A DNA stretch of 53,021 nt. Source: a virus. Positions within the stretch are counted from its first letter, which is position 1. Each line of letters begins with the position of its first letter. Positions 28,324-53,021 of the stretch are shown here, piece by piece. The notes under the pieces were generated by a model. That model saw only the letters and a list, made by a program, of their open reading frames with translations, searched no databases and was not told the origin of the DNA. A program made the translations under genes and the position numbers. The stretch spans positions 54,112-107,132 of the IMG/VR virus record IMGVR_UViG_3300021197_001557. One strand, given 5' to 3'.

Positions 28324-28692
28324 TTATACCAAAGGGTTTGCTTCACCGCCGGATGCAAATTGTTGCATAATGTCCGTCAATGAAGGGAGGAACGCTTGGA
28401 TAGCGTCTCCGACTTCGGGTTTTAGATTCAATAGGTCTTCTTTGCTCAATGCGGGTTCTGTTCTGTCAATGCACCGTGTCAGCACATATCTCCAATACCC
28501 ACCGAGGTCAATAGAAGGAGATGCTTCGCCATCGACAACCTTGAAATCAACGAATTGAGACATTGCTTCTTGTTGCTCAATCCATGAAAGTGGTTTTACA
28601 TAGATAATCAGCGTTCCATCAGGCGTGTTGACCTCATGGCGATTGGCACTACGGCTCAATACAAACTTGCGATTATTCTGATCCTGTTGCAT
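28324..28692 (-). CDS. Tail assembly chaperone, upstream (G-like) part
   Basis: A 122-aa protein starting at ATG 28692 with GAGGTGG upstream; a longer frame to 28773 would overlap the previous gene by 100 bases and is less likely. It has a beta-rich start (H-E-V-N-T-P-D-G-T-L-I-I-Y-V-K-P) and a helical second half (S-K-E-D-L-L-N-L-K-P-E-V-G-D-A-I-Q-A-F-L-P), the usual build of G-type chaperones. Its stop lies just after a slippery sequence that connects it to the following frame. Confidence 0.7.
   Translation of the reverse strand: MQQDQNNRKFVLSRSANRHEVNTPDGTLIIYVKPLSWIEQQEAMSQFVDFKVVDGEASPSIDLGGYWRYVLTRCIDRTEPALSKEDLLNLKPEVGDAIQAFLPSLTDIMQQFASGGEANPLV
28330..28339 (-). promoter_or_regulatory. 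Programmed -1 ribosomal frameshift site
   Basis: Read on the minus strand the sequence is AAACCCTTTG, which holds two overlapping heptamers of the X-XXY-YYZ type in the correct frame: A-AAC-CCT and C-CCT-TTG. The upstream frame stops at TAA (28324-28326) just after it. Nine bases downstream TCTCCG (28315-28320) can pair with CGGAGA (28284-28289), a possible stimulatory hairpin with a 25-base loop. This is the arrangement used by tail chaperone genes of long-tailed phages. Confidence 0.75.
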
Positions 28693-29053
28693 CGTCTTCC
28701 ACCTCTTCAACAGTTTCTTCAGCCGGGGCTTCTGTTGAGTTTCCTTCTGTTTCAGCACTTTCATAACGCTCAATCAAATCCTTTTTGTTGCCATAAATCG
28801 GCAATCCTTTTTCCTTCAGCATAAGGCGAAGGTCGGTCACAGTCATATCCCATAGTCCTCCTGTTGGGTTCTCGACTACAATCGCTTCAGCCATAATTGA
28901 AGTGCCTGTTGAGTTGGAGTAATCAGGTAATGACACATGGACCTTCACTTCGTCAGCACCGAGTCCGGGGCCTGCATTTACTGATGTGCCTGTAATTGTC
29001 CAGTCAAGGGGCGTTCTGACCCCGTTTAATGTCACGAATCCTGATAGTCGCAT
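28673..29053 (-). CDS. SAP-domain-containing protein near the tail genes
   Basis: A 126-aa protein. Residues ~1-60 are beta-rich (G-F-V-T-L-N-G-V, V-K-V-H-V-S-L-P-D-Y). Residues ~68-97 match a SAP-type helix-extended-helix: M-T-V-T-D-L-R-L-M-L-K-E-K-G-L then N-K-K-D-L-I-E-R-Y. The last ~28 residues are strongly acidic. SAP folds often bind DNA but also occur in phage structural proteins as small interaction modules. It overlaps the chaperone start by 20 bases and follows the tail tube cluster. Confidence 0.55.
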   Translation of the reverse strand: MRLSGFVTLNGVRTPLDWTITGTSVNAGPGLGADEVKVHVSLPDYSNSTGTSIMAEAIVVENPTGGLWDMTVTDLRLMLKEKGLPIYGNKKDLIERYESAETEGNSTEAPAEETVEEVEDDATGSE

Positions 29054-29090
29054 AGACAGCCCACTACGGTATAACGCTTAATCATTACGC

Positions 29091-29519
29091 TTAATACTGG
29101 AATCTAGCGGGATTTCCTTTGAATCTAGGGTGGCCTTCAAACGCCGCTTGATCAGCAATTGCTTGTAATTCCTTTAGGCGTTGCTGGCTTTCTTTATGAC
29201 TTTTAAATCTCCCCTCCATTCTTTCAGTTGCTCCTGTTTTAGGCATGTTTCCCAGTGATTGTAAAGGAAAATCGGGGTCGCCTACATTAGCGGCTACGGT
29301 CCCCTGCATGTTGGCCACATTTGACATGTAATCCTCCGCCCAGCCTTCAGGGTCTCCTTTGTAAGGAGCCGGTATAGGGCTTTGCGAGACCGCCTGTGCG
29401 GTTTCTTGACCTCCAAGTGCCTGAAGTTGTTGCATGTCCTCTTCATAATCTCCCTTCAAGAATTGACTCCATGCGGAGTCCAATGCCTGCTTGTGAATCA
29501 TGTCTTCTGTTTTTGGCAT
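29091..29519 (-). CDS. Small protein with duplicated leader (copy 2)
   Basis: A 142-aa protein beginning M-P-K-T-E-D-M-I-H-K-Q-A-L-D-S-A-W-S, identical over its first 18 residues to the start of the upstream gene. I chose ATG 29519 over a longer frame because this start is shared, is preceded by GAGG, and lies ten bases after the preceding stop. After the leader the sequence differs: Gln-rich helices (M-Q-Q-L-Q-A-L-G) and a C-terminal basic/aromatic end. No family is recognised. It may be a virion-internal or assembly protein. Confidence 0.6.
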   Translation of the reverse strand: MPKTEDMIHKQALDSAWSQFLKGDYEEDMQQLQALGGQETAQAVSQSPIPAPYKGDPEGWAEDYMSNVANMQGTVAANVGDPDFPLQSLGNMPKTGATERMEGRFKSHKESQQRLKELQAIADQAAFEGHPRFKGNPARFQY

Positions 29520-29525
29520 TTTAAT
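29485..29525 (-). repeat. 41-bp direct repeat, copy 2 (gene-start leader)
   Basis: These 41 bases are identical to 30137-30177. They cover the last bases before ATG 29519 and the first ~11 codons. Similarity continues more loosely for about 20 further bases inside the gene. A recent duplication, or selection for an identical N-terminal peptide at DNA level, would explain it. Confidence 0.9.
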
Positions 29526-29529
29526 AGCC

Positions 29530-30171
29530 TCAATAGGTCCCATTATACCTTGATCGGGACCGGCCCATGGTGAGTTGTTTTGGTGCTTCATTTCGGGGCA
29601 TTTCCAACTGTGGTGGGTTTTCAAAACGGTCATAATACATAGGGTGAATCTCATCCGCTGACTGTCCGGGGTTTACCAGCCAGTCAGGAATCGGGTCCAT
29701 GACCGAATCTCCTGTCCCCTCGGTTCTCATACTGCTTTCTCCGGGTGCGTATTCAGGGTTTTTTGCCGTGTCTCTAGTTGAAACACGGGATTCACTGTTT
29801 TTATCAGGGAGAGCATACCCGTGTTTTCTGTCATAATCCGGGTGGGACGGGTCCCTTGCACCCCTTTCGTAGTGTTCAGGGTCGGGCCACATCACCTCTT
29901 TGTCTCCGGGGACTCTAGCACGCCGTTCCTTTAGGTCGGGGTTTTCTTCAAGCATCCCTCGCATTTCAGCATACATCTGCGACTCTTTTTCTCGCTCCCA
30001 ATCGGAGGTTGGTCTTGAGTCGTCAATTCTCGTTTGAAGGCGAGACAACTCCTCCCTCTTCTTATCAGCGTGCGCTCTATGACCATGCGGTTCATATGTG
30101 CCGTAAAACTTCAATAGACTCCATGCTGAATCTAGGGCCTGCTTGTGAATCATGTCTTCTGTTTTTGGCAT
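29530..30171 (-). CDS. Charged protein with duplicated leader (copy 1)
   Basis: A 213-aa hydrophilic protein starting ten bases after the tail tube stop. Residues 1-18 are shared exactly with the following gene; the leader then reads S-L-L-K-F (18-22). The remainder is very rich in Arg, Glu, Asp and Pro and probably disordered, with D-R-K-H-G-Y-A-L-P-D-K-N-S-E in the middle. No catalytic motif. The W-S-L-L-K element recalls W-S-L-I-K in the Cys-rich protein at 35000-35563. It may be packaged or processed during capsid maturation. Confidence 0.6.
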   Translation of the reverse strand: MPKTEDMIHKQALDSAWSLLKFYGTYEPHGHRAHADKKREELSRLQTRIDDSRPTSDWEREKESQMYAEMRGMLEENPDLKERRARVPGDKEVMWPDPEHYERGARDPSHPDYDRKHGYALPDKNSESRVSTRDTAKNPEYAPGESSMRTEGTGDSVMDPIPDWLVNPGQSADEIHPMYYDRFENPPQLEMPRNEAPKQLTMGRSRSRYNGTY

Positions 30172-30177
30172 TTTAAT
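30137..30177 (-). repeat. 41-bp direct repeat, copy 1 (gene-start leader)
   Basis: Identical to 29485-29525, spanning the start of the 213-aa gene at ATG 30171. The two copies lie 652 bases apart, so recombination between them would delete one gene neatly. Confidence 0.9.
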
Positions 30178-30181
30178 CACT

Positions 30182-32629: not shown

Positions 32630-32640
32630 ATTTTTTCACC

Positions 32641-34983: not shown

Positions 34984-34999
34984 ACATTACCCCCCCTCC

Positions 35000-35563
35000 T
35001 CAATAATCGTCTCCGATTTCAAGATGACGGACTTTTCCGCCTTGTCTTCGCTGTTGTTTACCTGCGTGCCTTGATTCGGCCCGCCTGCGTGAACATGTCG
35101 AAGGAACCTCACCGGCCATACACTGATCGGGAGAATCTGTTGACATAGCACCGCATCCTCTTACTGAACATGGCTGTGCTTTAATCAAAGACCAACCGCA
35201 TTCACTTGCCTCTTGCACTGCTTTATCGAGTTTCTTCTTTGAGGCTGAACCGGCGTAGCAGTTTTCACATGCATTACCATCACTGTCCATTCCGTCCGAG
35301 CAATTCATACAATTCATATTCTTGTATGCTTTGTTATCACTCTTAGCGAAGTCCTTCTTTTTGCCATCCTCGTCCATATCCAATATGTTGACGGCATCAG
35401 GGGAGGAGTCTGTGACCTGCTTAGGAACGCCACAGTTTTCGTCGCACTGTTTCTTCTGTGCAGGCGTGCATTCGGAATAACTGCATTTGAAGTTTTTTTG
35501 ACAATATGCATTCTTTTCATTCATGTCGGCTCTTGCCTTTAAAATTAAATCGTTTTGGTTCAT
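35000..35563 (-). CDS. Cys-rich metal-binding protein (14 cysteines)
   Basis: A 187-aa protein with 14 cysteines: C21, C27, C32, C40, C44, then C85, C88, C99, C102 (C-M-N-C and C-E-N-C, a DnaJ-like zinc ribbon), then C122, C132, C137, C148, C157. The start M-N-Q-N-D-L-I-L-K-A carries the recurring L-I-L-K-A motif, and G-W-S-L-I-K-A occurs again at 123-129. The C-terminal ~30 residues are Arg- and Gln-rich. Several zinc sites or disulphides could form. It lies in the head-tail region and overlaps the preceding zinc-ribbon gene (ATGA). Function unknown. Confidence 0.65.
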   Translation of the reverse strand: MNQNDLILKARADMNEKNAYCQKNFKCSYSECTPAQKKQCDENCGVPKQVTDSSPDAVNILDMDEDGKKKDFAKSDNKAYKNMNCMNCSDGMDSDGNACENCYAGSASKKKLDKAVQEASECGWSLIKAQPCSVRGCGAMSTDSPDQCMAGEVPSTCSRRRAESRHAGKQQRRQGGKVRHLEIGDDY

Positions 35564-35901: not shown

Positions 35902-35915
35902 ACTGACCAGCCCCT

Positions 35916-36269
35916 TCAGGCTCGCCCGCCGGTAATCATAATTCTCATGATGAAGCCTGTTCCTTCGGTAACATCGCCGCTTAGGTCCAGTCCTGTTGCT
36001 TCAATAAGTGCAACATTTGCACCGCCACCGTCAGCAGGGTCGGTTTGAACATAAGCCTTGATTTTCTTGGTGGCACGGTCATATTCAAAGACATAACCGC
36101 CGGAGTTTTCAATGTGAACCATATCAGGGTTCGCTACATAGGATGTCGCATCGAAACCTGCGCCGCCTGCGTCCCATGTGGTGTCTGCTGTTGATGCACT
36201 AAGGGATACAGTCAATCTGTTCCCCGATACATTGGTTCTGCCATTCTGAATTACTACGAGGTCCGTCAT
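35916..36269 (-). CDS. Small beta-rich capsid-associated protein
   Basis: A 117-aa protein, all beta in appearance (D-L-V-V-I-Q-N-G, L-T-V-S-L-S-A-S, Y-V-F-E-Y-D, I-K-A-Y-V-Q, F-I-M-R-I-M-I-T). Ends in T-G-G-R-A. Such small proteins after the capsid gene are commonly head decoration or fibre proteins. I chose ATG 36269 over TTG 36278. No ribosome-binding site is obvious for either. Confidence 0.5.
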   Translation of the reverse strand: MTDLVVIQNGRTNVSGNRLTVSLSASTADTTWDAGGAGFDATSYVANPDMVHIENSGGYVFEYDRATKKIKAYVQTDPADGGGANVALIEATGLDLSGDVTEGTGFIMRIMITGGRA

Positions 36270-36318
36270 CGCTATCAATCCGTTCAGTATGTCTTTCCTT
36301 ATAACAATGACTTAGGTA

Positions 36319-36912
36319 TCAAGAATAGTAAACTATGACTTGAATTGGCCCTGTTGCGTCGGCGTGGAATGAGTTAGCACTTAGGAATTGTAGGACAAAC
36401 TTGACACTGCCACATACTCTCCCGGTCCATGGTTGAACACTGCTGATCACTCTAGCGGTTCCAGTTGCATCAGCAACATTTGGAGCCGCTGGTGTGCTAT
36501 GTCCTGACAACCCAGTCCTGACACTCAAGGCAATATCCATTGTAGTCCCGTTCTGTGCCGCACCTTCATTGGTTTGAAATTGATAGTAAGTTTGAGGGTT
36601 TTGTCCTGTAAAGTCAACGCCCTTGATTGGAGTAAAGAAGTCTTCCTGTTCGCCTGAACCCGTAAGAAAATCAGCATTTACCATGCGGAATTGTCCTTTG
36701 GTCGTTTCAACATCAGACTGTGTAGTAGCAACTGATGCACCCACATCGAGTTTAATCGTATGGATTTCTCCGTTGATCGGAATCTTTGCGGATTCAACCA
36801 TTGGATTTGACGCTAAGTCAGCCGCATCGAATTGATAGACTAGACGATTGACACGAGTCCTAGAAGCGTATCGTCCATCACCATCATCAATGGTGTGTTC
36901 AACAATACCCAT
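36319..36912 (-). CDS. Beta-rich virion protein
   Basis: A 197-aa protein starting in a TGATG overlap with the preceding gene. The sequence alternates short strands (I-H-T-I-K-L-D-V, Y-Y-Q-F-Q-T, S-V-K-F-V-L-Q-F-L, I-Q-V-I-V-Y-Y-S at the very end), fitting a jelly-roll or Ig-like structural protein. It sits among small capsid-associated proteins after the major capsid gene. No specific family recognised. Confidence 0.5.
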   Translation of the reverse strand: MGIVEHTIDDGDGRYASRTRVNRLVYQFDAADLASNPMVESAKIPINGEIHTIKLDVGASVATTQSDVETTKGQFRMVNADFLTGSGEQEDFFTPIKGVDFTGQNPQTYYQFQTNEGAAQNGTTMDIALSVRTGLSGHSTPAAPNVADATGTARVISSVQPWTGRVCGSVKFVLQFLSANSFHADATGPIQVIVYYS

Positions 36913-37376: not shown

Positions 37377-37387
37377 ATAGACTCACC

Positions 37388-37774: not shown

Positions 37775-37810
37775 TAAATCATCTCCTTAATTTTCATTAC
37801 TCCATTATGA

Positions 37811-38980
37811 TCAAGCACTTAGGTCCCTCACCTTGCCGTGTGCGCCATAGAACAGTTGCCATAGGTTGCCCATTGTGTGGAACATTCCCATTTGACCTAG
37901 GCGGTTGATACCGAATGGGTCTCCTGTTTCAATACCTGATTCGTGATAGAGAGTTGGTTTTGCAGTGCAGAAGTAGGTGTAGTCAGTGTCTAGGTAATAT
38001 AGACGGCTGATTCCTGCTCCACCTTCGTTGTGAACATCCTTGGAAGGAATAAGAGGCACACCGTTGTATGTAGCAACGATAAATCCTGCTTCCATACCCG
38101 GAACACCTTTCACACCGTTGACACCCGGAACAACCTTCTTCATTTCAGTGAAGCGTTGTTGAGGTTGTAGCAACTGTTGAATCTTCTCAAGAGTATCGTA
38201 TCCAGTCATGATGACCTTTGGCTGACCTCCTCGTTCCCAAATGTTACGGAACATTCCATCGAGGATGTTCAGTGTAAGTGGGCGTTCAGCGGATGCCGCA
38301 CCAGCATCGACATTGGAATCATACCATTGCTGGGTGGTCCCTTCAGGTCGGCTGATGTTGTATTGATTGTGGTCTCCTGCTGTGACATCAAGGAAGGTTG
38401 AAGCCTTCTCGATCTTAGCAGATGAGGTAATACGGTCAATTGAGTCGAAGTCATTCAATGAAGTGCTACGGTAGGAAATATCCTTTAGAAGCATCTTGTT
38501 GATGGTTTCAGCATGGTGCTTTGCCATTTCCATTTTCATGACAGCACGAGCATCACCAAGACCGTCATCCTTGTCAGCAAGGAACATTGCGGTTTCAGTG
38601 AGGTCAAATGTGTGAGCCACTGTGCGTGGTTTGTCATTGACATGCAAGAAAGTTGGTTTGCTTGTTTCAGGCAGTGTTGCGTTTTCAGGAACGCCGCCAC
38701 CCTTGGAAGCATCAGGCTTGCCAGTGACGACTCTCCATCCACTCTTTTCCCATGGTTTCTTTGGCATGATTGAAAATGCGTTAAACTCTTGGTTCAACTG
38801 TGACCAAACCTTTCGGCCAAAAATAGCCTGATAGGTTCCGCTTGTAGTGGACATCAATGGAGAGTCAGCCTTCAATAGGTCTGTTCCGCTGTATGCCCAT
38901 GCGTTGTTTCCTGCTCCTGCACCGTAATACAGTCGCTCCATGTCTTCAATTGTTCGTAGGTATCCTCGTGATCCGCTCAT
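37811..38980 (-). CDS. Major capsid protein, HK97 fold
   Basis: A 389-aa protein. It has HK97-type order: an N-terminal arm, a long spine-helix region (A-R-A-V-M-K-M-E-M-A-K-H-H-A-E-T-I-N-K-M-L), then L-N-I-L-D-G-M-F-R-N-I-W, and an A-domain ending with Y-N-G-V-P-L-I-P-S-K-D and G-I-S-R-L-Y-Y-L-D-T-D. It follows the protease-scaffold gene directly, with AAAGGAGATG upstream of ATG as for a highly expressed protein. Residues 34-38 (D-L-L-K-A) resemble a maturation site; cutting after K37 would remove a short delta region. The long, well-formed frame and context make this call secure. Confidence 0.82.
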   Translation of the reverse strand: MSGSRGYLRTIEDMERLYYGAGAGNNAWAYSGTDLLKADSPLMSTTSGTYQAIFGRKVWSQLNQEFNAFSIMPKKPWEKSGWRVVTGKPDASKGGGVPENATLPETSKPTFLHVNDKPRTVAHTFDLTETAMFLADKDDGLGDARAVMKMEMAKHHAETINKMLLKDISYRSTSLNDFDSIDRITSSAKIEKASTFLDVTAGDHNQYNISRPEGTTQQWYDSNVDAGAASAERPLTLNILDGMFRNIWERGGQPKVIMTGYDTLEKIQQLLQPQQRFTEMKKVVPGVNGVKGVPGMEAGFIVATYNGVPLIPSKDVHNEGGAGISRLYYLDTDYTYFCTAKPTLYHESGIETGDPFGINRLGQMGMFHTMGNLWQLFYGAHGKVRDLSA

Positions 38981-39019
38981 ATTTTTTCATCTCCTTTTTC
39001 AAGTTGTATTCTGAAAGGA

Positions 39020-40348
39020 TTATTCTCCTCTCAAGGCCCTCCGTGCCAAGTCTTCAGCCGCAAGCCATCCATCGACACCATTGCCCATTGCGTTAAACTC
39101 TTCATGGGTTGGCACACGAACAGATGTTGTTGCAGGTTCAGCAACGACGGACTTCTGCAAGTCTGTGTTCTCTTGCTTCAACGAAAGGATTTCGTTTCGC
39201 AGGGAGTTGATTTGGCTACCAAAGTCATTTTGCTTTTGGATGGCCAATGCGTTTTCTGTTTCAGCATTGTAACGGTCTTTCCATTCCTTTTCAACAAGGG
39301 ACTTGACCGCTTCTTCATCACGAATGGATGCGTATGCGGAGTATGCTCGTTCAAGGGATTCAGGTGAAAGGTTCAAGCCGCCGCCTTTGATAACTTGCTT
39401 GTTACCTGAAGGTGCGTTCATCTTCATGGAACCAGTTTGTTTGATCACATTCTGATTGCCGCTTGCCGATGGGAGGCTTGGGTAAGAAGGTTCAGAAGCA
39501 GATTCACCGCTTCCTTCAGCATCTCCTTGACCACGGTGGCTGTATCCGCCACTGCCTTCTTGGAGATAGGCCTTTTCAAGTCCGAAGTGTCCACGGAGCG
39601 AATCAAGGTTGACTCCACTCTCATGTGCAAACTTTTCAAGCGTATCAATGTAGGCGATTGCACTACTGTCGCTTCGATCAGTTTTAACAACTGGTTCATT
39701 TGCTGGTTCTTCATCTTCAATGTGCTTTAACACACGGCTTAGGCTGTCTCGTATTTCGCTCAATGCTTCATTACTCATTTCTTGTTCACTTCCTGTATTG
39801 TCCATTTTAAGGATTGTATAGCGGGCTTCCGGGTTGATGCCCTTTTTGCACAAGGTAATCTCGTGCAATTCTAAATCGGTAATCTCCCTGTGTGTCCCAT
39901 GTTCAGGGGTGGTTTTGGTTACACGGAATAACGCTTGACCACCGATAGAGAATGCTTTGAGGTCGCCACTGCGAACCTGCTTTTGGACTTCACGAGCCTT
40001 TTGGATGTCATCACGGACACGGCATACGACAAAGAGTCCATGCTCGTCCACTTCTGACTTCCAAACTCGTCCTTCCGAATCTGTATAATTGTCAACTACT
40101 TCACCGACTTGAATGCCGCTGTGTGCTAGTTGAACATTTCTGAATGCTTTGTTGCCCATAAACTTGCCAAATGCCTTGGTCAATGCTGATGCGGGGATTC
40201 TGTCTCCCTGCTTGTCAACCATGTCCACGCTTGCATATCCTGCAATGTATAGGTCGCTACCTTCTGACGCTTTCAGAATAAAATCGCTACCGACAGCCGA
40301 GAACCCTGCGGTTCTGACAGTTGGATTAGCCATTATACTGGTCGCCAT
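39020..40348 (-). CDS. HK97-type prohead protease fused to scaffold
   Basis: A 442-aa protein. Residues ~25-180 are a His/Ser (S78-type) prohead protease: V-Q-L-A-H-S (H76), L-K-A-F-S-I-G-G (S134) and L-E-L-H-E-I-T-L. Residues ~185-442 are a charged, partly coiled-coil scaffold with a Gln/Lys-rich helix near 370-410. Candidate self-cleavage motifs F-I-L-K-A (23-27) and T-I-L-K-M (178-182) sit before and after the protease domain. It processes capsid proteins during maturation. It has no Shine-Dalgarno; a TATA-like element ~25 bp upstream suggests a leaderless transcript from 40348, with ATG 40333 as alternative. Confidence 0.85.
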   Translation of the reverse strand: MATSIMANPTVRTAGFSAVGSDFILKASEGSDLYIAGYASVDMVDKQGDRIPASALTKAFGKFMGNKAFRNVQLAHSGIQVGEVVDNYTDSEGRVWKSEVDEHGLFVVCRVRDDIQKAREVQKQVRSGDLKAFSIGGQALFRVTKTTPEHGTHREITDLELHEITLCKKGINPEARYTILKMDNTGSEQEMSNEALSEIRDSLSRVLKHIEDEEPANEPVVKTDRSDSSAIAYIDTLEKFAHESGVNLDSLRGHFGLEKAYLQEGSGGYSHRGQGDAEGSGESASEPSYPSLPSASGNQNVIKQTGSMKMNAPSGNKQVIKGGGLNLSPESLERAYSAYASIRDEEAVKSLVEKEWKDRYNAETENALAIQKQNDFGSQINSLRNEILSLKQENTDLQKSVVAEPATTSVRVPTHEEFNAMGNGVDGWLAAEDLARRALRGE

Positions 40349-40365
40349 GAAATCCGAGAATCATG

Positions 40366-40430: not shown

Positions 40431-40643
40431 ATGTCAGACGATGGACACGAATGCAGTATATGTGGTGGGGAGTTTAGCGAGGAAAATGGCCGATTGGCCT
40501 TCATTGGAGGGGTTTTAATCAAAATAGGACCGTGGTGCATATCCCCTATCATGGAGATGTTCAAGGACCAAATCATCGAGGATTTCATAGAAGACCTCCC
40601 TCCCGATGTCCGTTTAGAAATTAGAAAACACTCAAGCGAGTAA
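40431..40643 (+). CDS. Small zinc-finger protein on the opposite strand inside the head cluster
   Basis: A 70-aa protein (from ATG 40431; upstream ATGs at 40413 and 40419 are possible). It begins M-S-D-D-G-H-E-C-S-I-C-G-G-E-F and has a later cysteine in G-P-W-C-I, then a helical acidic C-terminus (I-I-E-D-F-I-E-D-L-P-P-D-V-R-L-E-I). The C-x-x-C-G-G knuckle indicates metal binding. It runs against all surrounding genes and overlaps the end of the 1154-aa gene by 12 bases, tail to tail. It looks like a moron-type insertion with its own promoter, perhaps a regulator. Function unknown. Confidence 0.6.
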   Translation: MSDDGHECSICGGEFSEENGRLAFIGGVLIKIGPWCISPIMEMFKDQIIEDFIEDLPPDVRLEIRKHSSE

Positions 40644-43600
40644 TTCATCCTCTTCAAGTTGGTCAGTTGCTTCAACCTTGGTTCTTACTTCTTCTTCTGT
40701 TGCTTGGGCTTGAGGGGTTCTCAATGGATAAGAGAGTTTAGCCCGTCCCATTTCAATGTCAACAGTAGCGGGTCCATCCTTCTGTGGGTCCATGCTGATT
40801 TGCAGGTGATATGGCTGTTCTTCGGACTCCTCCTCATCTTCATCATTCAAATTAGACAAAGCCCCTATTGTTGTAGCATCATCGTCCGTCAATTCAGTCG
40901 GACCTCTTGGGGCGGTAATATCCGCCTGCATCCCTGACCACGCACCGCCATCAGGCGAAGCACCGTTCATGCGAGGATATACGAAGTTTTCAATGATGTC
41001 GTCATCAATTGCCTCATTGACAGTCCACTTATCTCCTTCTTCGGTTCTTTCAACACCATATTCAGGGCCAAAGACTTCAATCATTTTAGGGGTGAGTCCT
41101 TTGACAGCAGTGCATAACTCATCTGATGTCATTGATTCTTCAGCATCAACCAATGCCCTGCGTGCGTGAACCATCATGTGAGACTTTTCCTCACGATCAC
41201 CGCTGTCATCAAGTAATTCAGGCGCACGGAGAATCAAGTCGTCTCCTTCGCTGACACGCTTACGAGGTCTCTTTTTCTTAGCGGGTGCTGAATGTATTGC
41301 TGAATGAGTCCCACCAGTTGTTGATGAGACCATGCCCGAACCGGCTCCTGCGCCAGCCGCCGCACCTTCTTTCAACAAAGCGATAGCAACTGGACCCCAA
41401 AGTTTCAGTTGCGTCCTTGCATGTTTTACCAGCGTGGTGGTTCCACGATACACATCGATGTCCATAGCGTGTCTTCCATTGAATTGACCTTTGACAATAA
41501 CTGGCTCCAATAAGCCCGGATACTCCAAAATAATGTCCTGTCCTTTCACCATTACTTCAGGCAAGGGTCCATATGGGACTTTCTTGGCAATTTCTTCATC
41601 AGCAAAATGAACCCATTTAGGATGCATCTCCTTGCCTTTGATAAAAGTCGAAGTGGCATCTCTAATCAATAATTCAGTGCCGCCCAACTCATCCACTGCC
41701 TTCGCTAGACCATGCTCATCAGTTGTAATGCATGAGTTTGGCATTGGAAAATGTATGTTCTCATCAGAATGGTATAGTGTCCTCAAAGCATTCAACCTGT
41801 CTTCTAAAGGCTCCATGTGCAAGTCAGTGCCTTTGTGAACCAATAAATCAACAACATTCAACTTGTTGCCTTTGACATATGCATCAACCGTGAAATCTCC
41901 TTCACGCTCTTTCAATGCCTTCTTGACCTTTGATGGCAGGTCTATTGGGTCAACTCTCTTACCCTCCTTCTTGACTAGCATTCTTTTACCTTCAGGCATT
42001 TTTTGGACAACCCATTCACCACTAAACCCCTTGATCGTGGATAAGTCGTCTAAATCGTAAACAGTATGTGCTGGTTTGATCATCGTTTCAAACACGCCAG
42101 TTGGCTCATAATCATCCGCTTTTCTTAGTGAACCTGTTTGAAGAGGGGCATAACCGCTCGCATCAAGTGATGAAATAGCATTGATGTCTTTTGTTTTAGG
42201 TGACAACTTTGACATTGGACCCATGAGAGCGGGGGATATTGCTCTCACTAAATCAGCATGAGCCGTTCTTTGAAGTATATTGAAAGGAGCATCAGCAATG
42301 TTGTATGCGTATCCCTGTTGGTCCGGGTCATAACGCCATGTTAAGGTGGTGGGCATCTCATGCCCCCAAGCATCAGTATCGCCACTCACATAAGTTGGGG
42401 GGACGATAGCATGAGAGTCAGGTGAAACTGGCCCCACTGAACCCATAGTCGAAGACATTTCCGCATTTGGTGCTAGAGTTTTGTAGGACTCTCCCATTTG
42501 CATACGGAGTAATGAATGGTTTGCCGCCGCCGCTATTTGTTGGAGGTTGCCTCGGCAAATAGTGTGCATCATTTCATCATCAGAACCCATTGGGTTCAAA
42601 ACTTCAGGACCAAATTGAGCCATTACCTTTTGAGCGTGCTGTTGCATAACACGAGCGATATGACTGTTTGAGGCTCTAAAATGTTCGTTATGATGATTCC
42701 AATAATCATCAGTTGAAAACGGATGCTCCTCTCGTCCATAGCCAACTCTAGGACCACCCATGTCGGTTTGAGCGGCTAATGCACGCCCTAGGCTAGACAT
42801 CATCAAAGCATCATCAGGCACATCGATACGACCCCCGCTCAATTCTGACGGGTGTTCGTGTAGCCTATTTGATGCCGCTGAATACATGGCGAGTCTCTTT
42901 TGATAATCATTATCGGGGTCAAAGGTTGAACCTAATGCGGCCCTTCCGGGGTGGTCAGGTTCCATCTGATTTACAGCACTAGGGAAATGAGAGCCGCCTT
43001 GATTAAACGAACCAATGTCATCTAAATCGTGGCTGATCAAGTTTTTATTCATCCAACCACCGTTGAATATATCAGGATAAGACTGACTTAGAATGCCATC
43101 CAATGAACCTATGCTTCTCCCAACTCCTCCCCAATACTGGTATGGCTCCCAATGATGGTAATTCATTGAAGGCTCGACACCTGCCTCACTTGACACCCAA
43201 GGAGACATGTAGTGTTGTAAATCCCCGCCCGGATGGGGTTCTGTTGGCCCATGCCTATCGGGGGACCGTTGCCACCAAGAGGCCATTGGCTTGAATCTCT
43301 CTCTCCAATTCCTTAGCGCACGGCCCCAAGAGAGTCCTGCCTTTTCTTGAAATTGATTTTCTATTCTTTTAGCATCAGGTGAACCCTCTTCTGTTTTCGA
43401 CATTTGGCCAAGAAGGTCCATGAAATTACCACGCTGTCCTTCTGTATTCCATTCTAAACCAAACAGCATTGGCAACATGCCAAAAGAAGTGGATAACTCC
43501 TGTCTCTTGTTGTCATGATATTCATCATCACTAAGGAACGAATTGCGATTACGATCACGGGTGTAAAGGTCATGTTGGCTCTCGATTGGTAATCCAAGGT

Positions 43601-44096
43601 AATTGACAACTGACATTTCACTGATGGGAACCTTACTCTTGGCTTTCTCCTGTTCAGCCATAACCGGCAGTTGTTCAATAGAGCGCATGATATGATGGAC
43701 ATATTCAGGGTCTCCATGTGCCGCACCGTGCAATAGAGGGTGGCTATTTGATTTCATACCAAAGGGGTGGTGTTCGCCAAAAGGGTTGTCCTCCTTTGCC
43801 TGTGGCCAGTCTTGAGTATAATCGGTTGTCACCTTTGCATGACCTGAAAGGTAATTCTTGAGATTTTCAGGGATAACCATGCTAGAGGCGGATACCGGAC
43901 TATTCAAATCACGCATTGAATATGCGGGTGTTGTTTCAGCAACTGCTAATGTCGAAGCCAAAGCCTCATCATTTGGCGTAGGCATACCGTCCTGCATTGC
44001 TTCTGTGTAAGAAGGAATGTCCACATCCTTTAACAAAAGTATGGACAGGACCGTATCGGTTCTTTTGAGAATCAACTCTTCCTGTTCTTTAGACAT
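40632..44096 (-). CDS. Large head-module protein with DNA-ligase-like nucleotidyltransferase domain
   Basis: A 1154-aa protein between portal-associated genes and the protease. Residues 1-655 are unrecognised, rich in His, Trp, Pro and Gly. Residues ~664-835 follow the order of ATP-dependent DNA ligase motifs: Q-K-M-P-E-G-K-R (K699, place of K-x-D-G), F-T-V-D-A-Y (735-740, place of L-D-G-E), V-V-D-L-L-V (748-753), P-L-E-D-R-L-N-A-L (763-771), T-E-L-L-I-R-D (E808, motif IV) and H-P-K-W-V-H-F (825-831). The missing Asp and Glu make activity doubtful. Then come a hydrophobic segment, a Lys/Arg patch (940-947) and an acidic C-terminus. Motifs L-R-K-A (657-660) and L-I-L-R-A (954-958) bracket the domain. 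It may be a virion polyprotein. Confidence 0.55.
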   Translation of the reverse strand: MSKEQEELILKRTDTVLSILLLKDVDIPSYTEAMQDGMPTPNDEALASTLAVAETTPAYSMRDLNSPVSASSMVIPENLKNYLSGHAKVTTDYTQDWPQAKEDNPFGEHHPFGMKSNSHPLLHGAAHGDPEYVHHIMRSIEQLPVMAEQEKAKSKVPISEMSVVNYLGLPIESQHDLYTRDRNRNSFLSDDEYHDNKRQELSTSFGMLPMLFGLEWNTEGQRGNFMDLLGQMSKTEEGSPDAKRIENQFQEKAGLSWGRALRNWRERFKPMASWWQRSPDRHGPTEPHPGGDLQHYMSPWVSSEAGVEPSMNYHHWEPYQYWGGVGRSIGSLDGILSQSYPDIFNGGWMNKNLISHDLDDIGSFNQGGSHFPSAVNQMEPDHPGRAALGSTFDPDNDYQKRLAMYSAASNRLHEHPSELSGGRIDVPDDALMMSSLGRALAAQTDMGGPRVGYGREEHPFSTDDYWNHHNEHFRASNSHIARVMQQHAQKVMAQFGPEVLNPMGSDDEMMHTICRGNLQQIAAAANHSLLRMQMGESYKTLAPNAEMSSTMGSVGPVSPDSHAIVPPTYVSGDTDAWGHEMPTTLTWRYDPDQQGYAYNIADAPFNILQRTAHADLVRAISPALMGPMSKLSPKTKDINAISSLDASGYAPLQTGSLRKADDYEPTGVFETMIKPAHTVYDLDDLSTIKGFSGEWVVQKMPEGKRMLVKKEGKRVDPIDLPSKVKKALKEREGDFTVDAYVKGNKLNVVDLLVHKGTDLHMEPLEDRLNALRTLYHSDENIHFPMPNSCITTDEHGLAKAVDELGGTELLIRDATSTFIKGKEMHPKWVHFADEEIAKKVPYGPLPEVMVKGQDIILEYPGLLEPVIVKGQFNGRHAMDIDVYRGTTTLVKHARTQLKLWGPVAIALLKEGAAAGAGAGSGMVSSTTGGTHSAIHSAPAKKKRPRKRVSEGDDLILRAPELLDDSGDREEKSHMMVHARRALVDAEESMTSDELCTAVKGLTPKMIEVFGPEYGVERTEEGDKWTVNEAIDDDIIENFVYPRMNGASPDGGAWSGMQADITAPRGPTELTDDDATTIGALSNLNDEDEEESEEQPYHLQISMDPQKDGPATVDIEMGRAKLSYPLRTPQAQATEEEVRTKVEATDQLEEDELLA

Positions 44097-44109
44097 TCAA
44101 AACCCCCTT

Positions 44110-44565
44110 TCACAGGCGGTTCTCAATTTGTTTGAGCAATGCCTCTATTTCATTGATGACTTGAACATCCTCGGCATCAGCGTTTTTCTTGATCATTGTC
44201 AACTTAGACATTTTGTCCTCGACAGAATCCCGATACATTCCTTTGGTGGTCCCACCATCATTCATGTGCATATGCAATGATGAGCCTTTAGCGTCATATC
44301 CGGTTTGATATGATGCGGGCATTGAATAAACTTCACTAATTGGTTTTGATGCTGGTGCGGTATCTGAAAAGTGTGGATAAACTTGGTTGGTCGTATAACC
44401 CGCCGCCGCTTGAACCGGAACGCCACCTGCGTGGTCCATGAAAGTAGGAACCGCATTGTCGCCAGTTGGGTCCTGTTGATACTTCAAAAGCCCCAACTCC
44501 ATAGTCAGGATGTCTTTTAGTAATTCGCCTTCAGGGGTTTCGGAGGGGTCGTGCCATTCAATCAT
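44110..44565 (-). CDS. Hypothetical head-cluster protein
   Basis: A 151-aa protein from ATG 44565, which overlaps the previous stop as ATGA; a frame open to 44598 is less likely. The first ~35 residues are helical (E-G-E-L-L-K-D-I-L-T-M-E-L-G-L-L-K), the middle is Pro/Gly/Ser-rich and probably loose, and the last ~40 residues form a charged coiled-coil helix. No family known. Possibly a minor scaffold or internal head protein. Confidence 0.55.
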   Translation of the reverse strand: MIEWHDPSETPEGELLKDILTMELGLLKYQQDPTGDNAVPTFMDHAGGVPVQAAAGYTTNQVYPHFSDTAPASKPISEVYSMPASYQTGYDAKGSSLHMHMNDGGTTKGMYRDSVEDKMSKLTMIKKNADAEDVQVINEIEALLKQIENRL

Positions 44566-44900
44566 TGTCGCATCACCGTCTGTTCTGCTTGTTTCCACTC
44601 TTCTAATTCATCGTGCCTCGATTGCTTTTGAAAAGTATCCCCCGTTCCATTGAATGGTCCTGAAAAGGATTGAGAATTGTCTGATACATCCCTTTGTAGG
44701 GGGTCATAGGCTTCATCAGCCATTGGTGTCACTACTTTCAACCACCCTGCTTTCTTCATCATGGTTTCAGGGTCATCGAGAGATTTGGTTAGCATAGTGT
44801 TCTGTGTTTCTAGTGAAACTACACGCTGGCGCAATTCCTTGATTTCAGTGACCATCTCTTTCATCAGGTCGATCTTGGCTTGCTCCTGTTCGTCGCTCAT
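44562..44900 (-). CDS. Coiled-coil head-cluster protein
   Basis: A 112-aa protein. Residues 1-45 are a heptad-like coiled coil (L-M-K-E-M-V-T-E-I-K-E-L-R-Q-R-V-V-S-L-E-spaced Leu/Val); the rest is polar and loosely structured with a Gln/Glu-rich end. It is coupled to the next gene by ATGA. A scaffold-helper or oligomerisation role is plausible, with no direct evidence. Confidence 0.55.
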   Translation of the reverse strand: MSDEQEQAKIDLMKEMVTEIKELRQRVVSLETQNTMLTKSLDDPETMMKKAGWLKVVTPMADEAYDPLQRDVSDNSQSFSGPFNGTGDTFQKQSRHDELEEWKQAEQTVMRQ

Positions 44901-44906
44901 TTCAAA

Positions 44907-45428
44907 TCACATCGCTTGAGAAGGGTCCATAGTTGCCGCATCTTGTGGTGGCATTGGTTGAGGCATATTCATTGGGTCTTGTTGCATTGATGCCGCCATC
45001 ATTGGGTCATTTACAGGTGGTCCGTGTTGACCTAGTGATGCGTGGACCTCCTTTATCATGGCTAAATCCTGCAATAGGCTCAATTGCTTTTGTCTCATTT
45101 TTTCAATATCAGCCTGCATCGCTAAAGTGGTTTCGGGGGCAATGCCTGTTGCACGACCCTGTGAAAGTAATTGTCCAACACTAGCAAACTCATCTGCTAA
45201 GGCTTGAATGCCCGCATCCATTGAATCTAATGAGACACCTATTGCTGATTTAGGTGGTGCGGGTGGCATACCCATTTGAGGCATACCCGCTTCCATTCCC
45301 GGCATTTGACCGGCTGGTGAAGGCATTGGAGGCATCATAGCCTGCTTGATGATCAAGCCGTTGTATGCTTCACCTTCATGACGGAATCTAGGAGATACCG
45401 CTTTACTGTTGCCTTCATCCCAATACAT
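44907..45428 (-). CDS. Met/Pro-rich coiled-coil protein
   Basis: A 173-aa protein from ATG 45428, preceded by GAGGTG at proper spacing; GTG 45437 is the alternative. Residues ~30-58 and ~145-173 are unusually rich in Met, Pro, Gln and Gly; the centre is helical (M-Q-A-D-I-E-K-M-R-Q-K-Q-L-S-L-L-Q). It contains G-L-I-I-K-Q near residue 25. It is downstream of the portal and may assist portal or scaffold assembly. Confidence 0.55.
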   Translation of the reverse strand: MYWDEGNSKAVSPRFRHEGEAYNGLIIKQAMMPPMPSPAGQMPGMEAGMPQMGMPPAPPKSAIGVSLDSMDAGIQALADEFASVGQLLSQGRATGIAPETTLAMQADIEKMRQKQLSLLQDLAMIKEVHASLGQHGPPVNDPMMAASMQQDPMNMPQPMPPQDAATMDPSQAM

Positions 45429-45438
45429 ACTTGACACC

Positions 45439-45804
45439 TCAAAATACTCGGTGTGGTCGCATTACTGTTGTTGAACGACCTTTGCGTGAAATACCAGTCA
45501 CGGCTTGGTCTTGAGTCCCATCGTAATCTGAATCAGTTGGTTTGAATTGGTAAAGGTTGCCAGCCGACTTTTGAAGTTGGCTAGAATCTGTCGCCGAGGT
45601 AAAGGATTTAGCCAATCGGTCATGCAGGTCTAGGTCGGATTTTAGTTGCGAAAGAGCGTTTTGTGCCGCCTCTAGGTGCTTGGCAATATCGTCACGATTG
45701 TTATGCTGTATTGCTGTTTGCATTGCTTCTAGTTGCGCTTGCGCTCGACGGGCCATAGGGTCCATCTTCGTAATAATTCCAAAATCTCCAATCGTTTCGC
45801 TCAT
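45439..45804 (-). CDS. Helical protein next to the portal
   Basis: A 121-aa protein from ATG 45804 (GGAG upstream; GTG 45813 is the alternative). Residues ~12-65 are a long amphipathic helix pair (A-R-R-A-Q-A-Q-L-E-A-M-Q-T-A-I, A-L-S-Q-L-K-S-D-L-D-L). The C-terminus is polar and basic. It ends ten bases before the next gene. No family recognised. Confidence 0.5.
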   Translation of the reverse strand: MSETIGDFGIITKMDPMARRAQAQLEAMQTAIQHNNRDDIAKHLEAAQNALSQLKSDLDLHDRLAKSFTSATDSSQLQKSAGNLYQFKPTDSDYDGTQDQAVTGISRKGRSTTVMRPHRVF

Positions 45805-45837
45805 CTCGACCACTCCATCCGATGCATAGGTTACTCT

Positions 45838-47670: not shown

Positions 47671-49126
47671 CAGCAACAACCTCCTTTAGAATCTCATCAA
47701 AAGTGTCAATGGACCAATTCCACGACTTCATCATTTCGATTTGAGTTGTAGGCAATGCGTAATTGAAGGCTAAAACCTTCTTTGCGTTTTCATCGCCGTC
47801 CAAAGACTTCTTCATGATGATCGCATCCTGCTTCTTTTCATTCATTGAAGGTATCGCCCATTCTAAGGCTTTACGAACAGCAAACTCCCCTTCAATAATC
47901 AAAGATGAACCCTCCGCCCTAACATTCCTGACACCCATCTCACTCTTAACAGCGTTGGCATAAGAAGGTGCGTTCAGACTAGAGAATTGCATTGTGAGTC
48001 GTGGCTCGCCACGGGGTCCAATTCCCAACTCTCCGCTAGTATCTAGCAGTGAACCGACTAGCCTGCCAACATTCTTAATTAGAATATCAGGTCGGTCTAT
48101 GTCATAAAACAGACTTCTTTCATCCGCTCTTTTACCTTGACCTGCTGTGATTATGTCGAATAAGAAGCCATGGGATTTAATGAGTTTAGCAATTTCTTTA
48201 GAAGGTGATGATACGCCGTATGACTGTAAAGTTTGAGCATTCATTGGACCTCTTTCATACATGACATCCGCACATCGTTCTAAGACCGCATTCTCACGAG
48301 ATGAAAGTCTTGCTGACTTGTCAATTCGGTTTCGCCATATACCCTGTGCTTTTTGTCTTTGCTCATCATCACTGGATGAAGTCCATGCCTTCACCAACTG
48401 TAAAAACGGTATTTTTAGACGCTCGGTGTTTTTGTTTAACTGTTCGTAGTCCCTGTCATTCAATGGCAATTCATTTACAATTTCAGGGTTCACTCCTTCA
48501 AACTGCTTGACGATGGCTTTTCGTTCCGCAATAATCAGCGGTTGCATTATTTCCAATGCATCAAACCTTTCGGCCTTGATCAGAATATCTGTCACTTTCG
48601 CACTACTCATTCCAAAGTTGTCTAAAAAGTAAGAACGGGTTATCGGCACTTGGGCTTCAATAGGGGGTGGTGCTTCGGCTCCATCCGCCTCTCCGGGTGC
48701 TGAACCACTCAAATCGTTTTTCATCCCTCTCACTCCGACATCGGCCCTAGGACCGCCTAAATCATTCGGGTCTATTGAATCCAATAATGCTTGTCCATCA
48801 TCAACCGGCTCGGCTGGCATATCAGGTTCGGGCATTGGCGTTCCATCAATAGGAGGTTGTTCAACTGTGGTCTCCTGTTCCTCGGCGGTTGCTAATTCCT
48901 CCTCGGCTTGTCGCTGTTCGGATGAAGTTTCTTTGACCTTCTTCCTTGCTTCATTAAGCAACGCACTGCCCATTGACACAACCCGTTGACCACGGCCATA
49001 GGCGTTATCCTGCCTTTGATTTGGGTCAAACTTCAAAATAGCATCAACAATGCATTCGACCCCAATCACTGCTTCTATTCGATCACGCACTTTGCCACCC
49101 CAATCTCTTGCTCCATGTGTCGGCAT
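47660..49126 (-). CDS. Hypothetical protein between terminase and portal, with winged-helix-like region
   Basis: A 488-aa protein. Residues ~60-160 are an acidic Pro/Glu-rich linker including G-Q-A-L-L-D-S-I-D (111-119). Residues ~275-335 read as a winged helix (S-R-E-N-A-V-L-E-R-C-A-D-V-M-Y-E, then T-L-Q-S-Y-G-V-S-S-P-S-K-E-I). D-I-L-I-K-A occurs at 180-185. The start could be ATG 49126, inside the terminase end, or GTG 49090, which has GGGGTGG upstream. A DNA-contacting packaging or portal-associated role is plausible; no family known. Confidence 0.5.
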   Translation of the reverse strand: MPTHGARDWGGKVRDRIEAVIGVECIVDAILKFDPNQRQDNAYGRGQRVVSMGSALLNEARKKVKETSSEQRQAEEELATAEEQETTVEQPPIDGTPMPEPDMPAEPVDDGQALLDSIDPNDLGGPRADVGVRGMKNDLSGSAPGEADGAEAPPPIEAQVPITRSYFLDNFGMSSAKVTDILIKAERFDALEIMQPLIIAERKAIVKQFEGVNPEIVNELPLNDRDYEQLNKNTERLKIPFLQLVKAWTSSSDDEQRQKAQGIWRNRIDKSARLSSRENAVLERCADVMYERGPMNAQTLQSYGVSSPSKEIAKLIKSHGFLFDIITAGQGKRADERSLFYDIDRPDILIKNVGRLVGSLLDTSGELGIGPRGEPRLTMQFSSLNAPSYANAVKSEMGVRNVRAEGSSLIIEGEFAVRKALEWAIPSMNEKKQDAIIMKKSLDGDENAKKVLAFNYALPTTQIEMMKSWNWSIDTFDEILKEVVADGQ

Positions 49127-50498: not shown

Positions 50499-53021
50499 TG
50501 GTCATCACCCCAGCCCGCAGGCAAGAGGCTCATATTATCCTGAACCGCCATTTGTTCCTGTGGCCCCTGATCAAAGAATGATGAAGGTAATAGGGAATAA
50601 TTGTCATTAGGGTTTTCTGATTTTAGCATTCGTGGTGGCATCTCGCCACCCTCGGCCAATGCCCTTGGCGCAATATCCATTCTCATTGGGATTCCTTCAC
50701 GCAGTTGACTTGAGACCGACAGTGGTCCCACGCCTTCAGGCATACCTTCGCCCGGATAACGGACCGCCATATCCTTGGTTGGCCAATGACCCAAAGCCGC
50801 TAATAAATCAGCACCAAACGCTTGGTTGCCGACCATTCTCTCCCCCGTGTTTCCTCCTAACAAGCCTTTGAAATCCTTCGGGTTGGTTTCATGTAAGGTG
50901 GCATTGACATCATCAATAGGCATTCGACGGCCAACTTGACTACGCATTTGTCTTGAAGGCAGGGCGTGCCTCGTCGGGTCGAGGTCACTAAATCCAAATT
51001 GTCCTTTCATGCCGGGGACCAGTTTACCGGATTTTGGTGTGCCTTGGCCTTGGCCAAACATGATTCTAGTCTCCGAGTCATCAGGGCGAGCGGAGCGACC
51101 TGTCGGTCTAAACCCTTTTTCCTTCATTGCGTTGATGATCGAGTATGGCAATCCGGGCTGTTTTTCCCTTGGCAGGCCGCTCATCCCATCTCCCGTCCTA
51201 GTGCTGAAGTCATACTGCGGCAGTTTCATCCCATCGACACCCGTATGCCCTTCGGGGTTAAATGGATGAAGCAACTCACCGGCTTCATTTGTTGCCGTTG
51301 GGTCAGGGAACATTGATGGAGTTGTAATTTTCTGTGGTTTGCCGGAGTATTTACGGTCTAAAGCCCTTGCTAATGATGCCTCGTATATTCCTCTTTTCAA
51401 CTGATTACCGTGCTTGTCTGTTTCGTCCAATCCGGGGACATCATCAATATGTGAAAAACTGGGGCCTTCAAAAGTGCGAAACTTGCTCATTCCTTTCGAC
51501 CCCTTAATTGGTCCAATGGCCTTCACAGCCTCCGCTATTTTATCAGGGTCAACTTGAGTCACCCTGTATTTTTGGTTAGCATAGACATCTCTTGATTCAT
51601 CCTTGAATTGCTGTCGGTCTTCAAGTGAAACAAAATTAGGGTCGTCCTTGTCTGTTTCGCTTTCAGAAAACATGTTGTCATAAGGATACATTGGCTTGCT
51701 CATACCGGGGAGTTGAGTCGCTCCCACATTTAACATTCGGCCACTGTATCTGTCAACCGCTCTCATTCCAACCGGCTCCCCTGCGTCATTCCAATACACA
51801 TAGGTATTTGGGGCCTCTCTTTGTTTACCTGACCCCATTGTAAGTTTTCTTGCATATGAGATTGCGCTGATCAACTCTTCAGGAGTTAGAGTTGGCGGTT
51901 CGGACTCTAAATCGTCAAAGTCGTAATGAGTCCCAAACTCATCCGGTTTAATATATCGCCTCATATTAGAGTCTCGGTCATTACCATAAGTGTATTTCTT
52001 TGCATAACCTTCTTCGCCTAGGGCCTCTTTTTCACCAAGAACGGGGTCCCCCTGTTCATAGTCCTCATTAGAAGCAATGAGGTCGTTTAAGTCGTCCAAC
52101 AAGTCGTCATAATTCTCTCCAAGAGCATCAGCCAAGTCCTCGTCAAGCATATTCTTCAGATGTATAGCGGCGGCGAGATTCCCCCCCTCGGCCTCCTCCA
52201 TATACATCGGCCAATACTTGTCGGCATTTGAAGCGTATATCATAGGAAAATCCTCCGGCTTATCCGGCTCATCCTTTGGCTTATCTAGGATGTTAGGAAT
52301 CTCCATCATATCGCCCATAGTCTCGCCGTCCTCCGGTCCGAGGTCAGGGTTATCGAGGTCGCCGGGTGTTGGCTCCTCTTTAGGAGGCTCAACCTTTTCG
52401 TCTTCGATTAAATCATCGACTACTTCAATAGGAACAGATTGGCCTTTTTCACTATCCCACCTTGATGATGCCATTTGCTTTTCTTTGTCAGTGGGCGGTC
52501 TATTCAACTGCAACACTTTACCGTCGAATGTGGCTTCGCCTCCGATCAACTTCTCGGCCTTCTTTTTGGTAATTTTACTGCCGATGATAGTGCCATCATC
52601 CGCCACTTGATACATACGGTTAGGCATTTCAACCTGCATTGTCTCCTCGGCAATGTCTTCAGTTGATTCCTCTTTGCCACCAATTGGGACAAGGTTCAAC
52701 AAGTCTAGCAACTTATCATTGTCAACTTTATCAGATAAAGGAATTACATCGAGTAAATTGTCGGAGTTTGGAGAGTCTTTAGTTTCTTCAATAATCTCTT
52801 CTTGAATCTTCCGGTTTACCTCTCCAATATCAGGATTCGTCTCACTTTCAGCAAAATCCAAATCGTTATTTGACATTATTTCGTCCCAGCCTGCTTTAGC
52901 CGCTTTTTCCTCAACGGTCTCTTCAGGCTCCTCCTCCTGTTCTTGAGGAGGCGTGTCCGTTCCGGGGTCCATAGCCTGCCATGCGTCATCCTCCTCCTTT
53001 TCAGGTTCAGGTTCAGGTTCG
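50495..53021 (-). CDS. Acidic head-module protein, 5' end beyond the window
   Basis: The frame is open to the edge of the window; the first internal ATG is at 52972 (825 aa from there), but the frame continues upstream through E-P-E-P-E-P-E-K-E-E-D-D-A-W-Q-A, so the real start is probably outside. The first ~230 residues are strongly acidic and disordered. The rest is Gly/Pro/Asp-rich with a helix-rich piece near 225-290 (A-A-I-H-L-K-N-M-L-D-E-D-L). Near the end it has R-M-L-K-S (K784) and twice S-L-L-P. It lies directly before TerL where a small terminase could be, but nothing identifies it as one. Confidence 0.6.
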   Translation of the reverse strand, partial: EPEPEPEKEEDDAWQAMDPGTDTPPQEQEEEPEETVEEKAAKAGWDEIMSNNDLDFAESETNPDIGEVNRKIQEEIIEETKDSPNSDNLLDVIPLSDKVDNDKLLDLLNLVPIGGKEESTEDIAEETMQVEMPNRMYQVADDGTIIGSKITKKKAEKLIGGEATFDGKVLQLNRPPTDKEKQMASSRWDSEKGQSVPIEVVDDLIEDEKVEPPKEEPTPGDLDNPDLGPEDGETMGDMMEIPNILDKPKDEPDKPEDFPMIYASNADKYWPMYMEEAEGGNLAAAIHLKNMLDEDLADALGENYDDLLDDLNDLIASNEDYEQGDPVLGEKEALGEEGYAKKYTYGNDRDSNMRRYIKPDEFGTHYDFDDLESEPPTLTPEELISAISYARKLTMGSGKQREAPNTYVYWNDAGEPVGMRAVDRYSGRMLNVGATQLPGMSKPMYPYDNMFSESETDKDDPNFVSLEDRQQFKDESRDVYANQKYRVTQVDPDKIAEAVKAIGPIKGSKGMSKFRTFEGPSFSHIDDVPGLDETDKHGNQLKRGIYEASLARALDRKYSGKPQKITTPSMFPDPTATNEAGELLHPFNPEGHTGVDGMKLPQYDFSTRTGDGMSGLPREKQPGLPYSIINAMKEKGFRPTGRSARPDDSETRIMFGQGQGTPKSGKLVPGMKGQFGFSDLDPTRHALPSRQMRSQVGRRMPIDDVNATLHETNPKDFKGLLGGNTGERMVGNQAFGADLLAALGHWPTKDMAVRYPGEGMPEGVGPLSVSSQLREGIPMRMDIAPRALAEGGEMPPRMLKSENPNDNYSLLPSSFFDQGPQEQMAVQDNMSLLPAGWGDDQ

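Follow-up and report, generated by a model that had tools for sequence, protein, structure and literature searches.

The prohead proteases of phages T4 (gp21), phiKZ and SPN3US (gp245) belong to peptidase families (S77, S80) other than S78, the HK97-type family. They read the short codes [LI]xE, SxE and AxE, respectively, in which the middle residue is free; several head substrates are cut, extra cuts have been proposed within propeptides, and the SPN3US and phiKZ enzymes undergo C-terminal autocleavage (PMC5694885). In HK97, whose prohead protease gp4 is of the S78 family, the cleavage site of the capsid protein gp5 has been named K103/S104 (PMC10275583). Among archaeal viruses, one clade of major capsid proteins (MCPs) unites the magroviruses of marine archaea and the Druskaviridae (PMC8651126). 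No account of magrovirus head maturation was found in the literature examined. Here we have analysed a window of 53 kb (53,021 nucleotides, positions 54,112 to 107,132) out of the 107-kb IMG/VR virus record IMGVR_UViG_3300021197_001557, which we call magrovirus-like because of this published MCP clade. The MCP of the window has 80 close relatives in IMG/VR and is about 30% identical to those of the haloviruses HVTV-1 and HCTV-1 (Druskaviridae). Its head proteins carry a recurrent motif, [L/V/I/M/F]-x-K↓[A/S, less often Q/M] (the arrow marks the predicted cut, between P1 and P1'), which we read, with a probability of about 0.85, as a code that directs cleavage by the S78 prohead protease of the virus itself. 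Prohead protease codes as such are already known, and what we describe is a Lys version common to HK97, T5 and archaeal viruses.

The initial annotation had noticed short hydrophobic stretches followed by Lys in many head proteins and took them for a possible cleavage or capsid-targeting code. All the peptides that it quoted are present in the window: DLLK37A in the MCP, FILK26A and TILK181M in the protease, LILK9A and SLIK128A in a 187-aa Cys-rich protein, LILK11R, LRK659A and LILR957A in a 1154-aa protein, ILIK184A in a 488-aa protein and RMLK784S in an 825-aa protein, with WSLLKF encoded in an ORF (29530-30213) beyond the enriched block. Compared with shuffles of each protein that keep its composition, the motif was over-represented, and in the head module only. 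In the form originally proposed, [ILVFMW][ILM]K[AS], the head genes (35-53 kb) contain 9 copies for 2.1 expected (z 4.9), and the tail, connector and replication genes are close to chance (tail 2 vs. 1.7; 1-8 kb 2 vs. 1.0; 28-35 kb 0 vs. 0.7). The form favoured by the data, [ILVMF]xK[AS], gave 29 vs. 12.1 (z 4.8) in the head genes and chance level in the tail and replication genes. When each of the 20 residues was tried at P1 with the other positions held, Lys was the only one enriched (z 5.6, the next residue having 1.5), and Glu, as in the T4-type code, was found 15 times for 16.2 expected. K[AS] without the constraint at P3 showed no clear enrichment in the head genes of the window (61 vs. 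49.7) or of HVTV-1. The motif is thus better described by a hydrophobic P3, a free P2, Lys at P1 and a small P1' (less often Gln or Met). In an unbiased logo built on K[AS], P3 was the most informative other position for both magroviruses and haloviruses, with preferences of 3.1x for Leu, 2.6x for Val and 2.3x for Ile (Leu 3.8x in the haloviruses). Given a hydrophobic P3 and Lys, Ser and Ala are preferred at P1', then Gln and Met; the downstream genes have no such preference. Followed across relatives, single sites keep the Lys and the class of P3 fixed and let P2 drift.

The same signal was found in related viruses. In every one of 49 magrovirus loci Lys ranks first among the P1 residues; in these loci the MCP and the genes upstream of it hold 1380 copies of the motif for 391 expected, and the genes downstream 292 for 218. 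Several haloviruses, kin to one another and none of them used in defining the motif (which was not refitted), also had it in their head genes, with 20 vs. 6.2 copies in HVTV-1, 19 vs. 6.7 in HCTV-1, 16 vs. 6.0 in HCTV-5 and 48 vs. 13.7 (z 9.3) in more divergent contigs. Their tail genes were close to chance (5 vs. 5.1 in HVTV-1, 5 vs. 5.4 in HCTV-1), and the early genes of HVTV-1 had 10 vs. 14.7. As a positive control, the scan of T4 head proteins recovered the known Glu code (20 vs. 7.4, with Lys at 5 vs. 5.8), and for the head proteins of P22, a virus without a prohead protease, it was flat. A check suggested at the outset was whether the motif is conserved amid variable sequence; this is true for particular sites but not overall, its density being 3.2x expectation in variable and 3.9x in conserved stretches.

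The clearest link with known biochemistry is provided by the capsid proteins. The mature chains in the solved structures begin at residue 104 in HK97 and 160 in T5, so that K103 and K159 are the P1 residues, and the early remark that the HK97 protease cuts its capsid protein after Lys (FNK↓S, which fits the motif) is correct. HK97 gp5 contains four copies of the motif (9, 52, 87 and 103) and T5 pb8 another four (19, 54, 71 and 121), all of them in the removed propeptide, the mature protein having none; in shuffled propeptides four copies are reached by chance with P 0.002 for each of the two. The MCP of HVTV-1 behaves alike, with copies at 13, 24, 70 and 102 and none later (4/4). In the window, K37 is followed by Ala or Ser in all 64 MCPs compared, and K37↓A38 aligns with K102↓A103 of HVTV-1. 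When the window MCP was compared by profile with T5 pb8, the best stretch was centred on the cut, K37 falling over K159, although the match is not significant (E 0.15). A cut in a capsid delta region had been proposed here. The site itself is conserved and aligned with that of HVTV-1, but the leader that precedes it has only 37 residues, and there is no delta domain of the size found in HVTV-1 (ca. 100 residues).

The protease is encoded next to the MCP and is placed in family S78 by its profile match (PF04586, 39.9 bits for a cut-off of 21) and its catalytic residues, since the His and Ser are where they should be, LAHS and FSIGG aligning with FNHK and MSVGF of HK97 and FGHD and FSIGF of T5; proteolytic activity on prohead proteins is predicted. 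It also matches the proteases of T5-like phages (E 2e-5 to 8e-3). The motif was said to flank the protease domain, at the boundary with a scaffold, and this is what we observe. At the N-terminal edge, the FILK↓AS of the window (kept in 46/57 relatives) has as counterparts VFK↓SK in HVTV-1, LFK↓AK in HCTV-1, YIK↓SI in T5 and, with Glu, MLE↓SHD in T4, in an alignment of short stretches in which the placement of T5 moved in a second alignment. At the C-terminal edge, Lys followed by Met, Ala, Ser or Gly ends the S78 domain in nine viruses (the window, HVTV-1, HCTV-1, HK97, T5, PG07, Slocum, Wakanda and NiceHouse); more divergent relatives of the haloviruses have no Lys there. We infer a scaffold role for the C-terminal extension of the protease. 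A sequence search for solved relatives of the MCP and the protease gave none that was credible, and the AF2 model of the MCP was unusable (mean pLDDT 30.7), probably because nearly all its relatives are more than 75% identical.

The 1154-aa protein offers a different kind of evidence. Its AF2 model (mean pLDDT 70.6) is mostly confident up to about residue 643, followed by a linker (652-671, pLDDT < 50), a second fold (about 676-895), another linker (928-967, pLDDT < 50) and a small C-terminal part. The best Foldseek matches of the second fold are archaeal ATP-dependent DNA ligases (E 4.6e-6), and the model argues for a ligase/nucleotidyltransferase fold. A DNA ligase has been reported among the genes of magroviruses (PMC10160649). 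Pfam gave no ligase match for the record of the window, and the canonical motif I, KxDG with its invariant Lys, is absent, with QKxPxG in its place and K699 in only 46/55 relatives, so that any catalysis is putative. The suggestion that the motif lies on both sides of this domain was borne out, K659 and R957 falling in the predicted disordered linkers that flank the fold. K659 is present in 55/55 relatives and followed by Ala or Ser in all of them, with His, Leu, Phe, Arg, Gln or Thr at P2.

The reading of the motif as a protease code is built on its presence, enrichment, Lys specificity, conservation and position at domain edges and on its agreement with the HK97 and T5 cuts, all of them computed here. 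The S78 protease would be built into the prohead, release itself there by cuts at K26 and K181, break up its own scaffold-like C-terminal extension in several places, take the 37-residue leader off the MCP at K37↓A38 and sever linkers in internal head proteins, among them the two that flank the ligase fold; that the sites are cut in this virus, in which order and at which of the conserved copies, is what we infer from the data. Several observations weigh against it. In the T5 site, RHLK↓A, the hydrophobic residue is the Leu at P2, with His at P3, and two downstream proteins hold conserved copies too (K147 of a 545-aa and K781 of an 815-aa protein). Kinship and shared conserved sites among the 49 magrovirus loci mean that their counts are not independent. 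Besides, the copies within folded domains (K58, K97 and K117 of the protease, K298 of the portal and, probably, K317 of the 488-aa protein) are probably bystanders that are not cut and inflate the family counts. Members of the protease family have about 8 motif copies each.

The other half of the initial annotation was that the motif may serve in capsid targeting. It would then be a capsid-targeting or scaffold-binding peptide by which head proteins dock to the capsid or the protease, without being cut. Copies are concentrated in proteins encoded upstream of the MCP, which plausibly reside inside the prohead, and several are near N termini (K16 of a 124-aa protein, K26 of the protease). However, the copies are for the most part internal or C-terminal and several of them fall in linkers or on domain edges, the Lys residues at the ends of the HK97 and T5 propeptides are known cuts, and a free P2 between a fixed P3 and fixed P1 and P1' resembles subsite recognition. 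We therefore find targeting improbable and unsupported, whereas the cleavage half is upheld by the match with HK97, the confinement to propeptides, the domain edges and the specificity for Lys. It is somewhat less probable still that the motif is a by-product of helical, Lys-rich, scaffold-like proteins, LxKA being a common helix pattern: the extension of the protease does resemble a scaffold, and folded helices probably contain some of the conserved copies (e.g., ALTKAFGKF), but the shuffles preserve composition, the equally helix-compatible Arg, Glu and Gln are not enriched at P1, T4 yields Glu instead of Lys and P22 nothing, and K659 and R957 are in predicted disordered linkers. Cutting by a trypsin-like protease of the host rather than by the viral one would be in keeping with Lys at P1 and with the trimming of some phage proteins by host enzymes (P22 gp7 by OpdA, according to its annotation). 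Yet it is an S78 protease that adjoins the MCP, with the motif at both edges of its domain, Arg shows hardly any enrichment at P1, there are constraints on P3 and P1', and the code is common to viruses of Bacteria and Archaea, all of which makes the host enzyme the most remote of these explanations.

Features of the window with predicted or possible cleavage sites (positions in the window; arrows mark predicted cuts)
Feature	Coordinates	Strand	Evidence
Major capsid protein (MCP), 389 aa, HVTV-1-type	37811..38980	-	PHROG 24667 E 5e-44; HVTV-1 profile match E 6e-38
S78 prohead protease (about 25-180) with scaffold-like C-terminal extension	39020..40348	-	Pfam PF04586 25-178, E 6e-10
1154-aa head-module protein, DNA-ligase-like fold at about 676-895	40632..44096	-	AF2; Foldseek
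Predicted MCP maturation cut K37↓A38 (TDLLK↓ADSPL)	38867..38872	-	Motif in 64/64 relatives; aligned with HVTV-1 MSK↓ADN
Predicted cut K26↓A27, N-terminal edge of protease domain	40268..40273	-	46/57 relatives
Predicted cut K181↓M182, C-terminal edge of protease domain	39803..39808	-	Aligned K in eight other viruses
Predicted cut K259↓A260, protease extension	39569..39574	-	62/62 relatives
Predicted cut K399↓S400, protease C-terminal extension	39149..39154	-	61/62 relatives, local conservation 0.54
Predicted cut K659↓A660, linker ahead of ligase fold	42117..42122	-	55/55 relatives; linker 652-671
Predicted cut R957↓A958, linker past ligase fold	41223..41228	-	[KR]AP in 42/55 relatives; linker 928-967
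Predicted cut K39↓S40, 112-aa head protein	44781..44786	-	46/52 relatives, P3 Leu, P2 variable
Predicted cut K16↓M17, 124-aa head protein	45763..45768	-	K and M in 48/48 sequences, P2 variable
Predicted cut K69↓S70, 124-aa head protein	45604..45609	-	Full motif in 30/48, local conservation 0.47
Possible cut K31↓Q32, 176-aa head protein	45342..45347	-	K in 25/26, P1' mostly Q/N, local conservation 0.27
Possible cut K39↓Y40, 162-aa cassette protein	44479..44484	-	K in 51 sequences, P1' Tyr in 49
Predicted cut K184↓A185, 488-aa protein	48572..48577	-	29/41 relatives
Predicted cut K440↓S441, 488-aa protein	47804..47809	-	31/42 relatives, local conservation 0.51
Possible cut K9↓A10, 187-aa Cys-rich protein	35534..35539	-	K↓A-[D/S]-M before Cys module in relatives, other P2/P3
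Motif copy K784/S785, 825-aa protein, cut uncertain	50618..50623	-	Sequence only; no relatives retrieved

The head block occupies the minus strand from 53 to 35 kb, starting with the genes of the 825-aa protein, the terminase, the 488-aa protein, the portal and four small proteins, and continuing with those of the 1154-aa protein, the prohead protease, the MCP and several small proteins. Only part of the peptides first quoted were kept in relatives, namely K37 of the MCP, K26 and K181 (with Met at P1') of the protease, K659 and [KR]957↓A-P of the 1154-aa protein and K184 of the 488-aa protein. LILKR at the N terminus of the 1154-aa protein had to be abandoned, as many relatives read RLRTD or similar, and so had SLIKA of the 187-aa protein, kept in 3/19. 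RMLKS was dropped from the site list because no relatives could be retrieved for its gene, and WSLLKF because essentially none were retrieved and it lies outside the enriched block.

Some other features of the region deserve mention. Just after the MCP, three small genes (36319-36912, 35916-36278 and 37388-37774) are depleted of the motif in the magrovirus loci (1 vs. 9.6, 2 vs. 8.4 and 0 vs. 4.3), as if their products avoided it. The gene of the 162-aa protein (44110-44598) is in relatives a hypervariable cassette with EF-hand-like (DxDxDG) and Cys-rich (KADMxEKNxYC) modules, and the 187-aa protein (35000-35563) has a Cys module similar to that of this cassette. A 72-nt direct repeat (29461-29532 and 30113-30184, 88% identical) gives rise to nearly identical peptides, IKMPKTEDMIHKQALDSAWS, in two adjacent small ORFs, and WSLLKF comes after one of its copies.

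The S78 system of the window resembles that of HK97 in the protease family, in the Lys that ends the protease domain and in a gp5 whose motif copies are all in the delta domain. However, the HK97 scaffold is this 103-residue delta domain of the MCP, whereas the window has the 37-residue leader and a long protease extension, and it has many more predicted substrates. T5 is similar in that relatives of its protease pb11 match that of the window, pb8 is cut at Lys↓Ala and the motif copies are found solely in the propeptide; it differs by its Leu at P2 and His at P3, and the similarity between the MCPs is weak. The systems of T4, phiKZ and SPN3US share with the window a three-residue code with a free middle position and several head substrates, but P1 is Glu in them and Lys in the window. 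The Druskaviridae (HVTV-1, HCTV-1 and HCTV-5) have a homologous MCP and protease, the same code and Lys↓Ala at the aligned MCP site. Their MCPs, though, still have a delta region, in which there are three more copies of the motif, and their internal head proteins are different, with annotations as zeta toxin, sialidase and ADP-ribosyltransferase. In HCTV-5 (L093:6177-15647) the genes with these three annotations are found between the portal and the protease. It is possible that their products are enzymes packaged in the virion. T4 has a comparable enzyme, Alt, which is packaged in its virion and ejected, and by analogy one could guess at a role as ejected cargo for the enzymes of the head module.

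There is one case in which the code seems to be different. In the Methanofastidiosa virus vir519 (L088:3931-10032) the P1 scan of the head proteins favoured Gln (12 vs. 2.6), which is also found at the matching place in the MCP and at the N-terminal edge of the protease. This protease is without the last Asp of D-x-x-G-D, kept in all the Lys-type proteases compared, and the same position in T4 gp21, with Glu at P1, reads NRNKR. A search for relatives of vir519 that would repeat the Gln pattern found none. Judged from these sequences, vir519 points towards a P1 that co-varies with the protease. A wider proposal, which we regard as tentative and rather doubtful, is that a single Lys code serves an entire lineage of S78 prohead proteases in bacterial and archaeal tailed viruses, with P1 co-varying with the protease, and that its role in magroviruses is to set free internal head modules, such as the ligase-fold protein, which may be ejected.

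The marine archaea that magroviruses infect are abundant and uncultured. A code legible in the sequence predicts which of the viral proteins are cut, where they are cut and which ones probably sit inside the head, the ligase-fold protein included. It also ties the known HK97 and T5 cuts to archaeal viruses, and can be tested in cultured haloviruses such as HVTV-1.

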